The position numbers were made by a program, and so were the translations under genes. A DNA stretch of 64,000 nt, taken from positions 2,728,001 through 2,792,000 of the forward strand of contig NZ_CP071596.1 in assembly GCF_017357105.1 (NCBI RefSeq). Direction: 5' to 3'. This DNA comes from Natronosalvus caseinilyticus. Lineage in GTDB: Archaea > Halobacteriota > Halobacteria > Halobacteriales > Natrialbaceae. Shown piece by piece: positions 38,408 through 44,722 of this stretch. The notes beneath the pieces were generated by a model, which was not told the origin of the DNA, ran no database searches, and saw only the letters and a program-made list of their open reading frames with translations. The first letter of the stretch is position 1; every line of letters begins with the position of its first letter.

Positions 38408-38737
38408 TCACTTCAGGTAGGGACGGCGAGGGTTTGAATGTTCGTCTCGGGGTTCCGGACGGTGTGGTTTCACTCTCGATGGGCGGTCGTCGAACCCCTG
38501 AAATGTCTCGTCGAGTGGTCGTCGAATTCCTAGGCAGGTTTGATTTAGACCCCCCCCCTCCACGTTCTTCAGGGCATGAAGGAGGGCAGGCGTGCTGCAT
38601 ATAGAGAATGGGTTCAGCACGGTGATGGATTGTTTCGTGCCGAATCCAATGAACCACCGGCCCCGTAGACCTGCTTACTGAACAGTCGGTGTAGTGTGGA
38701 ATGCGAGGTCAAAAATCGAGTCGTCTACGCTACGGAA
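38408..38737. other. intergenic region with a poly-C tract
   Basis: These 330 bases have no convincing gene. A run of nine C lies at 38550-38558, and a TATA-like GCATATAGAG lies at 38599-38608. The nreA promoter should be within the first 60 bases, but no clear TATA box is seen there. A and T content is higher than in the genes. Confidence 0.5.
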
Positions 38738-40213
38738 TTACGCGTCGGAAAGCGTGAACGAGAACGTCGCTCCCTCGCCGGGGTTCGAGTCAACCCAGAT
38801 CTCACCGCCGTGCCGTTCGACAATCCGCTCACACACCGCCAGTCCGATGCCAGTTCCATCGTACTCCTCGTGGCTATGCAGTCGATTGAAGACCTCGAAG
38901 ACGCGATTCGTGTCGCCGGGATCGATACCGATTCCTTCGTCGTGCACCGAGATGATCCACTCATCTCCCGTTTCCTCAGCCGAGATGTGAACGCGTGGAG
39001 GATCGTCACCGCTGTATTCGATTGCGTTCTTCAGCAGATTCTGGAACACTTGCCGGAGCTGGTTCGCGTCACCCTCGACTTGCGGAAGTGACTCGGACGT
39101 CACGTCGGCGGCGCTTTCTTCGATCCGCAACTGCAGGTCTTCAAGGACATCGGTTAGGATCGAATCGAGATCGGTCGGTTCGAGCGGCTCGCCCGACGTC
39201 TCGATGCGTGAGTACTGAAGCAGTCCGTCGATCATCCTCCGCATCCGGTCGGCTCCATCGACGGCGAATTCGAGGTAGTCCTCGGCGTCTTCGTCAAACG
39301 CGTCACTATAGCGACGCTCGAGCAACTGCAGATAACTCGACACCATTCGGAGTGGTTCCTGGAGATCGTGAGAGGCGGCGTACGCGAACTGTTCCAACCG
39401 TTCGTTGGACTCCTCGAGGTCGGCGACTAACTGTTCGAGTTCCTCCTGGGACTGATGTCGGTCGATCGCCTCTGCGAGAATGTTCGCAACACTCTGGACG
39501 AAGGTCACGTCCTCCTCGGAGTACTCCCGCTGTTCGATGTCGTGGGTGCCGAGGATACCCCACGGGTCGTCGAACGGCCCGATGATGGTGCTGAGACCGC
39601 TCTTGACGTCGTGGCTCGTCAACAACTCGGGGCCGCTAAAGCGTGATTCCGTCTCGAGGTCTTCGACGACGATCGGGTGATTGTTCGCCAGCGTGTAGGC
39701 CGCCTGGGAGTCCGCTTCGACCGAAGAGACAGTTGCCTCGCCCACGATTCCGTCGTGCCAGCCGACGCCCTGGCGGAGCAAGAGTTCCTCGGCGTCCGGG
39801 TCGAGGTCGAGCACCTTGCAGTACTCGTTGTCGAGGACGTCTGCCACCTGACGTGCCGCCCGGTCCATGAGTTCATCCAGGTCGTCGGTTTCGAGTGCGA
39901 ATTGCCCGAGATCCGCCACGATCTGTTGCTGATTGGCGCGGCGTTCAAGTTCGCGTTCGCGTTCCCTGCGGTCGGTGACGTCGGTAATGAGCCCTTCGAG
40001 CTCGGTAGCTGGCTGCCACCAGACGCGTCCATTGTCGCCTACTTTCTTGGTTTCCAGCCGACCGTGGTCGACGAGGCACTCGAGGCGCTCGTAGGCCTTC
40101 CGACGGTCGAGGTTGATCTGGTCGGCTACCTCGGCCGTCGTCCTGGGCGCTCCTCCCACTTCGAAGAGAGCAAGGGTTTCTTGAAGTACGCCCGTCAACT
40201 GCGAGTCAGTCAT
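38738..40213 (-). CDS. cytosolic histidine kinase with N-terminal winged helix and GAF domain
   Basis: The 491-residue protein starts with a winged-helix-like domain (about residues 1-70: TTAEVADQINLDRRKAYERL, then a WWQPA wing) and a coiled coil (75-95). A GAF domain (about 98-250) follows with EYCKVLDLDPDAEELLL and HPIVVEDLETESRF. Next comes a HisKA domain with phosphoacceptor His282 in ASHDLQEPLRM and a HATPase domain with NLLKNAIEYSGD, DEGIGID and GTGIGLAVCERI. It has no membrane helix, so it senses an intracellular cue. The winged-helix/kinase arrangement is uncommon. The kinase core closely resembles the one at 25773. Confidence 0.93.
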   Translation of the reverse strand: MTDSQLTGVLQETLALFEVGGAPRTTAEVADQINLDRRKAYERLECLVDHGRLETKKVGDNGRVWWQPATELEGLITDVTDRRERERELERRANQQQIVADLGQFALETDDLDELMDRAARQVADVLDNEYCKVLDLDPDAEELLLRQGVGWHDGIVGEATVSSVEADSQAAYTLANNHPIVVEDLETESRFSGPELLTSHDVKSGLSTIIGPFDDPWGILGTHDIEQREYSEEDVTFVQSVANILAEAIDRHQSQEELEQLVADLEESNERLEQFAYAASHDLQEPLRMVSSYLQLLERRYSDAFDEDAEDYLEFAVDGADRMRRMIDGLLQYSRIETSGEPLEPTDLDSILTDVLEDLQLRIEESAADVTSESLPQVEGDANQLRQVFQNLLKNAIEYSGDDPPRVHISAEETGDEWIISVHDEGIGIDPGDTNRVFEVFNRLHSHEEYDGTGIGLAVCERIVERHGGEIWVDSNPGEGATFSFTLSDA

Positions 40214-40669
40214 TACTTCAGTTTATCACGATGCCGGTGGATAAATTTTCCGCTGGTGGAGGGACATCGTCCGTTGGAGAGATTTGAAGGCACACGTATC
40301 GCTTCGACAGTGTCCTCTCGAGTTGAGAGCCACTCATCAAACCCGGGAGTTCCACGATTCGAGTTCCTCGATACCGAGGTCCAGGAGCGACGCGTCACCA
40401 CGGAATTTGGCGATTACGATGCCTCGAATTCCAAGAACCGATAGAGGTTGCGGCTACGAAGATGCCATCCCCGTCTGCTTCGACAGAGATACGGCCTGGA
40501 ATGTTCATATCGCCGAGAAGGTGCGTCGCGACCTGCCTGACGGGTCGGCAAGGGTGAAAGCAGTCCGGATTTCCGAGAGCTGCACGCGTTTAGCGGATTT
40601 CGACAAGATTCCCAGGCGGTAGGAATCGGCCCGTTCCAGATAAGGGAGGGTTCCATACCTCCAGACGAA
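40214..40669. other. 456-base stretch upstream of the multicopper oxidase
   Basis: I see no complete gene. Short protein-like stretches occur on the minus strand in different frames (for example near 40400-40560), suggesting an old gene broken by frameshifts, but I cannot name it. There is no clear TATA box within 40 bases of the oxidase start; the T-rich ATAAATTTTCC at 40240-40250 is the strongest A/T signal. Confidence 0.4.
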
Positions 40670-42547
40670 ATGGTGGACCACGACGAACGATCCAATTCTG
40701 GCCTCTCTCGGCGTGATCTCATGGTTATCTCGAGTGCAGTTGGGATTTCGGGACTCGCTGGCTGTTCGAGTCCCTCAGCGAACACGGAACCAGAGGAACG
40801 TCCACCAGAGCAATCGGATGCACGGACGATCCTCAATCATACGTCGCCTCCGCTCGAAAAGTGAGTTGCGGACCTACCGAAGCCCGGTGCCGCTGAACCG
40901 GTTGGGAGCAAGGATGACCGGCCATACTACGAGTTGAAGATGCAGGAGTTCGACCAGGAGATACATCCCGATCTTCCGGCGACCACCGTCTGGGGGTACG
41001 AAGGACACTTCCACGGACCCACGATCGAAGCTGAGAAGGGAGAACCGATCTACGTCAGGTGGGAGAATAAACTGCCGGACGAACATCTCTTGCCCGTAGA
41101 CACGACGGTACATAGTGAGATGATCCCGTACGAAACTCCGGGTGTACGAGCCGTGACGCACCTCCATGGAGGGAACATCGAACACGAGAGCGATGGAAAA
41201 GCGCAGGGGTGGTATACCCGTGACTTTGCGGAGACCGGCCCGGCATTCGAGAAGAAAGACTACTTCTACGTGAACGATCAACCGGCGTCGACGCTCTGGT
41301 ATCACGATCACTCGGTCGGCATTACCAGATTGAACGTTTATGCCGGTCTGGCCGGATTGTATCTACTCCGAAGTGACGAAGAACGTGAACTCGGCCTTCC
41401 CAGCGGCGACTACGAGATTCCACTCGTCTTACAGGACCGGAGTTTCAGCGATGATGGGTCGTTGTTCTATCCAAGTACCGTCGCCGACGCGCCCGACGAG
41501 TCGTTCCCCGATCCGAGCATCATCTCGGAATTCTACGGAGATACATCGGTCGTCAACGGGAAAGCCTGGCCTCGACTGTCAGTTTCGCCCCGAACGTACC
41601 GGTTCCGGATATTGAACGGATCGAACTGTCGGTTCTACAGTCTCGACCTTCGTGAGTACGACGAGTCCTCCGAAACCGTCGGCGACACCGGTCCGCCGTT
41701 CGTTCAGATCGGTAACGACGGTGGCCTCCTCTCGGATCCTGTCGAACTCGACGACAGGCTCGAGGTCGGCCCCGGACAACGCAGTGACGTCGTCGTCGAC
41801 TTCTCGGAGTGGCCAGGGGAGACACTGCTTCTCCACAATAATGCACCTGCTATGTACCGTGGTAAATTCAGCAGCGAAGGCGATGACGTCGTGTCACTTC
41901 CCGAAATTCTGCTCGTCGACGTCTCGGACTCGGCTGCTGAGGAGGGTACGAGTACTACGAATACCGTTCCGTCGAACCTGGCCGACGTTCCGGAGATTTC
42001 CCTGGATGCCGTCGACAATACTCGGTACCTCCCGCTCTTGATACAGAGCGACGAGTACGGGCGAAATCTGCACAAGCTCGGCAACGAGGAACACACGTCC
42101 GGACTCGCACTGGATGATCCAGTAACGGAGAATCCACGGCTCGGAGACACCGAGATCTGGAGTATTCCCAACCTGACCGGTATGTCTCACCCGATCCACC
42201 TTCATCTAGTACACTTTCAGGTCCTGGGGCGGCAACCAACGGGAGACTACGATCCGGCAGAGGACGAGCTCGATCTGGACTCGCTCGAGGATCCCGAACC
42301 CTACGAACTGGGGTGGAACGACGTGGTCACGGTTCACCCGTCCGAGGTAGTCCACGTGGCGGTTCACTTTGGAGAGTACGAAGGGCTCTTCAGCGATCAG
42401 ACGGGGACGTACATGTGGCACTGCCACATGGTCGAGCACGAGGATTACGACATGATGCGTCCATTCGTAGTGAGACCATCTGAGGACGACGAGGGGAACC
42501 AGAGACACTCCGGCGAAACTCTCGGTTTCTCCACTGTATGGGGCTGA
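40670..42547 (+). pseudogene. multicopper oxidase interrupted by an in-frame TGA
   Basis: The reading frame encodes a twin-arginine signal (SRRDLMVISSAVGISGLAGC, ending in a lipobox-like Leu-Ala-Gly-Cys) followed by a spacer. It then hits TGA at 40862-40864 and continues in the same frame through VADLPKPGAAEPVG into an intact three-domain multicopper oxidase. All copper motifs are present: His-Leu-His-Gly (41159 region), His-Asp-His, His-Pro-Ile-His-Leu-His and His-Cys-His-x3-His-x4-Met. The stop codon occupies the place where relatives have an aromatic residue (LEK-x-V), and TGG-to-TGA is a single change. Translation from TTG 40934 or ATG 40940 would give a signal-less protein. Confidence 0.8.
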
Positions 42548-42826
42548 GGTCTGGTCAAGTGGATCGTTCGAGAGGCGTCGCCTCTCATGATCACGAAGAT
42601 ATTCGATGTTCGAACGACCCCATCGAATCCCACGTCATCGCCGTGTGCCGAACAGACCGCGTTCGTCACCGCCCCGTGTCTGTTCGGAGCCGGCATCTCA
42701 CGGTATTCGTAGCACTTCGTGGTACGCAGGGCCACACAACACCGATTACGGTCGAAATCCGATCCGGCCACCGACAGTGGGTGTCACACCTGGTCCACCG
42801 CTCGACCTGCGCCTGAAGACGCCGGT

Positions 42827-44722
42827 ATGCGCTCGAAATTCATATCAAGCGTAACAACATACGTCGTCGTAGTGGCGTCGATTCTCCCCGTCATCGTCGG
42901 CATCCTCGTCCTCGGGCTGGCCGCACAGCTGCTGGCCAATCGGCTGCGCATTCCGAGCGTCCTCTTTCTCATCCTCCTCGGCCTGCTGGTCGGTCCCGAG
43001 GGACTTGGGTTCGTCTCAATCGATACCTTCGGCGCCGGTCTCTCGACCGTCGTCGGCCTGAGCGTCGCCATCATCATCTTCGACGGGGCGTTTCACCTCC
43101 GCCGGGAAAAGCTCGAGATGGCCCCTCGAGCCATCATCCGATTGACGACGCTCGGTGCAGCCGTCGCCCTCGGCGGGACAGCCCTCGCCGTCCGGTACTT
43201 CTTGCACACCGACTGGGGAATCGCCTTCCTGATCAGTGCCCTGCTGGTGGCGACCGGCCCGACCGTGGTGACGCCCATCCTCGAGGTTATCACCGTTCGC
43301 GAGCACGTCGAGGCCGCGCTCGAGGCCGAGGGCATCGTCAACGACGTGACGGCCGCGCTCCTGGCCATCGTCATCTTCGAGACGGTCGTCGTCGGGGACG
43401 AGCGCTCGCACGTGCCTGTGTACTTCCTCCAGCGCTACGCGGTCGGCATCGGCGTGGGGATCGTCGTCGCCATCGTCGTCTACGCCCTGCTGACGCGGGT
43501 CAGACAGCCCGCGGGCGACGCCCCACAGACCGCCCGTCTCGTCGTATTGACCGGCGCGCTGGCCGCCTATGGCCTCGCCGACTCGATTTTCCCCGAGACG
43601 GGCGTGGCCGCGGCCGGGACGGCCGGGTTCGTCCTGGGCAACCTCGACCTGCCACACCGCGAGGAAATCGAGGGATTCAACCGCGACCTGACCCTGCTCG
43701 TCCTCTCATTCGTGTTCATCTCGCTGGCCGCGCTCATCGACGTGGAAGCGCTCCTCGGCCTCGGGTTCGGCGGCATCGCGGTCGTGGTCGCGGTCACGCT
43801 AATCGTCCGTCCGCTGATCGTCGCCGCGGCGACCACCCACTGGCGATTTAGCGCGGGCGAGCGGTACTTCCTGAGTCTCGTCGGCCCGCGGGGGATCATC
43901 CCCGCCTCCATCGCCACGCTGTTCGCCATCGAACTCGAGACGGCCGGCAACGACGTGGCCGCACAGACGCTCGCCGGCACCGTCTTTCTCGTCATCTTCA
44001 TCACGGTCGTGCTGCAGGCGGGGCTCGCCCGCCAGCTCGCGGAATACTTCGACATCGAACCAATGCGCACCATCATCGTCGGCGGCGGTCGGGTCGGCCG
44101 GACGCTCGCCACGCGACTGGAGAACCGCGGAGAGAACGTCATCCTCGTCGACAGCGACTCGGCGACCGTCGAGCGACTCCGTCAGGAGGGCTTCTCGGCC
44201 CACCACGGCGATGGCACCTCGACCGAGACGCTTCAGGAGGTCGGCATCGACAACGCGAAACTGGTCGTCGCCACGACCGCCGACGACGACACCAACCTGC
44301 TGGTCTCACAACTCGCCTCCACGCGCTTCGACGTCGACCGCGTGCTCGCCCGCGTGAACACGCCGGAGAACGTGGAGGCGTTCGAGACGCTCGACGTCGA
44401 CGCCATCGACGTCTCGAGCGCGACGGCCTGGACCATCGACAACGAGATCGAACGCCCGGCGCTGGCCCACTGGATGAACGAACTCGGCGAGGGCCACGAC
44501 GCCCAGGAGATCGTCGTCACCGCGGCCGAACTGGACGGGACGACCATCCGCGACCTCGATTCGGAGATTCCCGACGGCTGTATCGTCGCCGTGATCGCCA
44601 GTAACGGAGAGACGCACGTTCCCGAGGCCGACACCGTCCTCGAAGAGGGTGATCGGGTCACGTTCATCGGCCGCGAAGACGCTGTCCGAACGGCCGTCAA
44701 GCGGTTTCACCCGCGCGACTGA
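42827..44722 (+). CDS. CPA1-type Na+/H+ antiporter fused to TrkA-N and TrkA-C domains
   Basis: The 631-residue protein from ATG 42827 has about twelve membrane helices (residues 15-410) of the CPA1 cation/proton exchanger type, with GPTVVTPILE and a VNDVTAAL segment holding the Asp expected for transport. A RCK/TrkA-N domain follows (TIIVGGGRVGRTLATRL, near 418-434, a Rossmann NAD-binding loop, then ILVDSDSATVERLRQEG), and a TrkA-C domain ends the protein. The regulatory part binds a nucleotide and gates ion flux. It helps ion and pH balance in a salt-in cell. Upstream in-frame codons to 42719 lack conserved character. Confidence 0.94.
   Translation: MRSKFISSVTTYVVVVASILPVIVGILVLGLAAQLLANRLRIPSVLFLILLGLLVGPEGLGFVSIDTFGAGLSTVVGLSVAIIIFDGAFHLRREKLEMAPRAIIRLTTLGAAVALGGTALAVRYFLHTDWGIAFLISALLVATGPTVVTPILEVITVREHVEAALEAEGIVNDVTAALLAIVIFETVVVGDERSHVPVYFLQRYAVGIGVGIVVAIVVYALLTRVRQPAGDAPQTARLVVLTGALAAYGLADSIFPETGVAAAGTAGFVLGNLDLPHREEIEGFNRDLTLLVLSFVFISLAALIDVEALLGLGFGGIAVVVAVTLIVRPLIVAAATTHWRFSAGERYFLSLVGPRGIIPASIATLFAIELETAGNDVAAQTLAGTVFLVIFITVVLQAGLARQLAEYFDIEPMRTIIVGGGRVGRTLATRLENRGENVILVDSDSATVERLRQEGFSAHHGDGTSTETLQEVGIDNAKLVVATTADDDTNLLVSQLASTRFDVDRVLARVNTPENVEAFETLDVDAIDVSSATAWTIDNEIERPALAHWMNELGEGHDAQEIVVTAAELDGTTIRDLDSEIPDGCIVAVIASNGETHVPEADTVLEEGDRVTFIGREDAVRTAVKRFHPRD

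Follow-up and report, generated by a model that had tools for sequence, protein, structure and literature searches.

A gene for a multicopper oxidase in the haloarchaeon Natronosalvus caseinilyticus carries one in-frame TGA between its export signal and its copper-binding body. Has this stop ended the gene, is it an error of the assembly, or is it bypassed in the cell? In this study, we analyzed the window around the gene, a stretch of 64,000 nucleotides of contig NZ_CP071596.1 (positions 2,728,001 to 2,792,000; positions below are those of the window). Searches of the literature gave no report of this gene from Natronosalvus. New here are the exact DNA of the sister copy, the selection tests, the insertion together with the move of the gene, and the exchange of its 3′ end.

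An In-Frame TGA Interrupts a CotA-Type Oxidase Gene

The features of the locus are listed in Table 1. Translation of the window gave one frame from ATG 40670 to 42547, of which the TGA is the sole interruption. The translated product reads MVDHDERSNSGLSRRDLMVISSAVGISGLAGCS...PPLEK*VADLPKPG... and is then open to TGA 42545-42547. The Tat-type lipoprotein signal at its start is SRRDLMVISSAVGISGLAGCS. In the body, both multicopper oxidase domains, PF07732 and PF07731, scored above the curated cut-off, and all four copper-binding motifs were found (THLHGG, WYHDHS, HPIHLHL, and WHCHMVEHEDYDMM). An earlier note on this DNA had described a signal, a stop, and a body with four copper motifs in a single frame with no frameshift. 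Our translation agrees, and the alignment with the closest relative, the sister copy, contained only indels of 3 bp and 9 bp until the 3′ end. Because conserved protein flanks the stop on both sides in one frame, the stop is not a chance feature.

The match and the motifs identify the window gene as a member of the CotA-type multicopper oxidase (laccase) family. The sister protein matched the CotA laccase (Bacillus spore coat protein A, PDB 1gsk) with 486 bits and an E value of 1.7e-144. The alignment began at the LEK-aromatic-V segment and extended as far as the final copper motif, and the four copper motifs were common to both proteins. Unlike CotA, the form found in haloarchaea starts with a Tat-type lipoprotein signal and carries an acidic tail; in the window copy, moreover, the residue that corresponds to CotA Phe6 is a stop, and the C-terminal tail has been replaced.

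Table 1. Features of the oxidase locus, in window positions.
Feature	Position	Strand	Basis
Whole insertion, flanked by the Nre gene and the cation antiporter, ~4.3 kb	about 38548..42842		Empty sites L113 and L114
GAF-HisKA-HATPase histidine kinase in the insertion	38738..40213	-	91% identical relative on another N. rutilus replicon (C3)
Promoter region retained next to the gene	40600..40669	+	Homology to the N. rutilus copy starts at 40600
Signal and linker (SRRDL...LAGC, Tat-type lipobox; linker ends PPLEK)	40670..40861	+	Translation; layout shared with relatives, e.g., L008 and L092
In-frame TGA, TGG (Trp) in relatives	40862..40864	+	Translation, sister DNA, reading of homologues
CotA-type multicopper oxidase body, four copper motifs	40865..42499	+	Pfam PF07732 and PF07731 above cut-off
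Alternative starts TTG 40934 and ATG 40940	40934..40942	+	Only in-frame ATG/GTG/TTG between stop and body; not starts in relatives
PATE-type repeat (IS605-related, transposase-free), without its first ~88 bp	42492..42847	+	Complete copies in Natronosalvus genomes

The Stop Lies at a Tryptophan Codon

Homologues were collected from the same family, in which 56 of 125 genomes matched, together with 24 loci from the genome collection. At the stop site, each of the other 52 loci that were read has the codon TGG; a few genomes are represented twice in this set. In an alignment of distinct sequences, Trp occupied the stop column in the sister copy and in 38 of 38 outgroup copies. Every homologue read upstream in frame had LE[KR]W[VI] or a near variant, and Bacillus CotA has Phe in the context TLEKFV. 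The earlier note had placed an aromatic residue here (LEK-x-V) and had proposed aligning homologues at this position. The alignment confirmed the aromatic position, and the relatives read straight through with no separate start. Thus, one uninterrupted frame leads from signal to body in the relatives, whereas the window copy has a premature stop where they are open.

The sister copy, an ortholog (WP_254161193.1, L092), lies on the 340-kb plasmid NZ_CP100356.1 of Natronosalvus rutilus WLHS1. It is 91% identical in DNA over 1.9 kb, from promoter to C-terminus. Unlike the window copy, it is intact, with TGG at the site, its own stop, and different flanks. At the stop site, the sister copy reads AAGTGGGT and the window AAGTGAGT; over a longer stretch, these are CTCGAAAAGTGGGTC and CTCGAAAAGTGAGTT, respectively. 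These results indicate a single G-to-A change in the third base of a Trp codon, and the sister DNA thereby demonstrates the one-base step from TGG to TGA that had been proposed.

The Oxidase Gene Was Relocated and Its 3′ End Replaced

In two sister species (G112 and G114; the empty sites are L113, which is N. rutilus, and L114), the Nre gene lies directly beside the cation antiporter, whereas the insertion separates them in the window. Because the empty site is common to two relatives, an insertion in the window lineage is likelier than two losses. Homology to the sister copy spans 40600-42499 only. The oxidase copy has moved: it sits in a chromosomal mosaic insertion here and on a plasmid in the sister. 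Viral contigs were also searched for the site and gave no match.

The right end of the insertion is formed by a repeat of 356 bp, relatives of which occur throughout the genus. Four Natronosalvus genomes (G000, G114, G116, and G117) have complete copies, which are 381-442 bp long. These copies start with TTGACCTCCTCCACGCCC...GACGTGG and end with CCTGCGCC...GACGCAGG, a palindrome, followed by TATCA. PATEs, haloarchaeal elements related to IS605, have been described in Haloquadratum and defined as short and repeated, with near-terminal palindromes but neither terminal inverted repeats nor a transposase (PMC3119063). The Natronosalvus repeats have the same make-up, being short, with TTGACCTCC...palindrome...TATCA, a near-terminal palindrome and no transposase, for which their length leaves no room; no terminal inverted repeats were seen, as judged from aligned ends. 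Unlike the known elements, the window copy is truncated at its start and fused to the oxidase gene.

The oxidase-PATE junction is an 8-bp microhomology, AGGGGAAC, at 42492-42499. The repeat supplies 15 terminal codons (42500-42544) as well as the stop that closes the frame, and 42547 is therefore not the native gene end. The window C-terminus is ...EDDEGNQRHSGETLGFSTVWG, compared with the native end ...EDDEGNDTE in the sister. The oxidase had previously been called intact; this holds for the body and its motifs, and does not hold for the 3′ end, since homology to relatives stops at 42499. The C-terminal tail varies among relatives in length and sequence, so the loss of the native end is probably of no consequence for the enzyme. 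The replaced 3′ end shows this oxidase copy to be recombinant.

Other parts of the insertion were also examined. A 136-bp stretch at 40424-40559 was ~79% identical to parts of plasmid ORFs of ~149 aa (L123, L124, and L125, on N. rutilus C2/C3 and on contig C2 of the window genome itself), and it is apparently a gene remnant. At the left end, 38588-38682 is a repeat with copies of 72-77% identity elsewhere in the window genome and in G112. It lies beside nine consecutive C and a hairpin and is possibly another IS605/PATE end. In two sister species, a TATA-like TTGATTTATC lies ~30 bp 5′ of the likely start of the antiporter. In the window, at 38535-42880, the insertion has split it from the antiporter, and the PATE end CGAAATTCATATCA now occupies its former position. 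The promoter of the antiporter may thus have been exchanged through the insertion.

The Gene Was Probably under Selection until Recently

Between the window and sister copies, pairwise dN/dS was 0.16 over the full gene and 0.15 over the body. The kinase next to it gave 0.12, and four genes that flank the locus gave 0.03-0.16. A branch codon model of 12 sequences gave an omega for the window branch of 0.17, with the sister fitted separately, to 0.24, on a background of 0.10. These values were no different from that of the sister. An omega of 1 along the whole window branch was rejected weakly, by ~2.6 log-likelihood units (2ΔlnL about 5.2, p about 0.02). At the 55 positions where window and sister carry different residues, both copies fitted the family profile equally well (Wilcoxon p = 0.56). 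These results indicate that the gene was selected for most of the time since the split and that the stop is recent. The equal profile fit and the omega values are consistent with a very recent lesion, and purifying selection on the body is in line with the recent event or sequencing error envisaged earlier. One change private to the window copy, from Pro to His, falls in the FPGPT motif, which is otherwise invariant. It was considered as a sign of decay and dropped, since private changes at invariant sites are just as numerous in the sister.

We consider it likely that a real and recent TGG-to-TGA nonsense mutation has occurred in a displaced accessory CotA-type oxidase gene of Natronosalvus. 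Most likely, the gene is an ordinary, very young pseudogene. Two observations count against this reading. The body has no excess of damaging changes other than the stop. In addition, a dyad, GATTCC-N9-GGAATC, is retained at 40607-40627, about 43 bp 5′ of the ATG, and transcription is therefore still conceivable. An ATTCC-N9-GGAAT dyad was also kept upstream of other Natrialbaceae oxidase genes (L037, L038, L041, L045, L019, L033, and others). It is possibly the operator of a metal-responsive regulator.

Sequencing Error, Internal Initiation, and Recoding of the UGA

The TGA base call rests on one assembly of one strain. If it were a consensus or sequencing error, the genome would truly have TGG and the enzyme would be intact except for its swapped C-terminal tail. 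In favour of such an error, one base is the sole defect of the coding body, which shows purifying selection and agrees with the family profile. The assembly, however, is 99.96% complete in two contigs, and the change is a clean substitution and not a homopolymer indel. When ~40 window ORFs were compared with two sister genomes, neither an obvious pattern of gene breakage nor a clear second case emerged, flagged cases not having been individually inspected. A coding-potential scan of the window for interrupted genes was dominated by antisense shadows and gene ends in this GC-rich DNA. We regard an error as unlikely, though worth keeping in mind.

A signal-less enzyme made from TTG 40934 or ATG 40940 had also been suggested. 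Such a cytoplasmic oxidase would arise through internal initiation or termination-reinitiation. Between the stop and the body, these two codons are indeed the sole in-frame starts, with the entire copper-binding body downstream of them. Moreover, an out-of-frame ATG at 40914 (ACG in the sister) opens a frame of seven codons that ends 2 nt before ATG 40940, a route by which reinitiation is conceivable. In Haloferax volcanii, termination-reinitiation has been demonstrated for gene pairs that overlap; the proven archaeal cases have overlapping stop and start codons, not gaps of ~70 nt (PMC6728339). The internal start maps to about residue 32 of CotA, which would remove a conserved N-terminal segment and truncate the first cupredoxin domain, and the product would lose Tat export. 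Relatives do not begin at either codon. The starts exist as suggested, a working enzyme from them is improbable, and we give this explanation little weight.

Alternatively, the UGA might be read as Trp, by leaky or programmed readthrough, which would give some full-length exported enzyme. Among nonsense changes, UGA in place of a Trp codon is the mildest, since misreading by the Trp-tRNA restores the normal protein. The body and the promoter dyad are retained, as this explanation would have it. Nevertheless, TGA is the commonest apparent stop in the window (22 of 41 long ORFs), and no other copy of the gene has TGA at the site. A tRNA with the anticodon TCA was absent among the detected tRNAs, a list that is incomplete and from which tRNA-Trp itself was not recovered; a UGA-suppressor reading was rejected after this search. 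Readthrough is thus very improbable as an explanation of the locus. Equally hard to credit is that useful reading of the UGA by the Trp tRNA yields a small, tuned amount of exported oxidase, which would be regulated readthrough in a haloarchaeon.

Insertion of selenocysteine, for which nothing but the identity of the codon speaks, is disfavoured: relatives have Trp and neither Cys nor Sec at the site, all SelB matches in the genome were below cut-off, and the lone SepSecS match was marginal (21.3 vs. 21.1 bits, in a 510-aa ORF that resembles a related PLP enzyme; the model also matches in B. subtilis). A selenoprotein identity, looked for through the Sec machinery and Cys or Sec in homologues, was accordingly not retained. 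The earlier opinion that recoding is unlikely is upheld by these SelB and SepSecS results, by the lack of a TCA tRNA among those detected, and by the use of TGA as an ordinary stop.

Probable Loss of an Accessory Oxidase

With a young nonsense mutation as the preferred reading, translation would start at 40670 and terminate after 40861, leaving a signal and linker fragment of 64 residues. No exported oxidase would be made, save possible traces through Trp misreading at the UGA, and the locus would be a newly dead accessory gene. A close form was present in two of eight congeners, and relatives in the 56 of 125 family genomes. No second copy of the CotA-type oxidase was found in the window genome by the homologue search of family genomes. 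Three other copper-oxidase-like loci in this genome were read by eye.

The locus would then be a clear young case of accessory gene loss in a haloarchaeon, in which a single substitution abolishes an exported copper oxidase whose gene had already been displaced to a site among mobile repeats. No known mechanism is challenged by it. For annotation, a functional laccase should not be assigned to the 537-aa ORF 3′ of the stop, nor should the first ATG or TTG of this ORF be treated as a true start.

Short C-terminal remnants of the oxidase (~residues 443-525) were observed in several other Natrialbaceae genomes (G048:C19:141514, G079:C2:247005 (L060), G096:C5:48077, and G008:C2:349401). As read from these fragments, they suggest repeated loss of the oxidase gene in the family.
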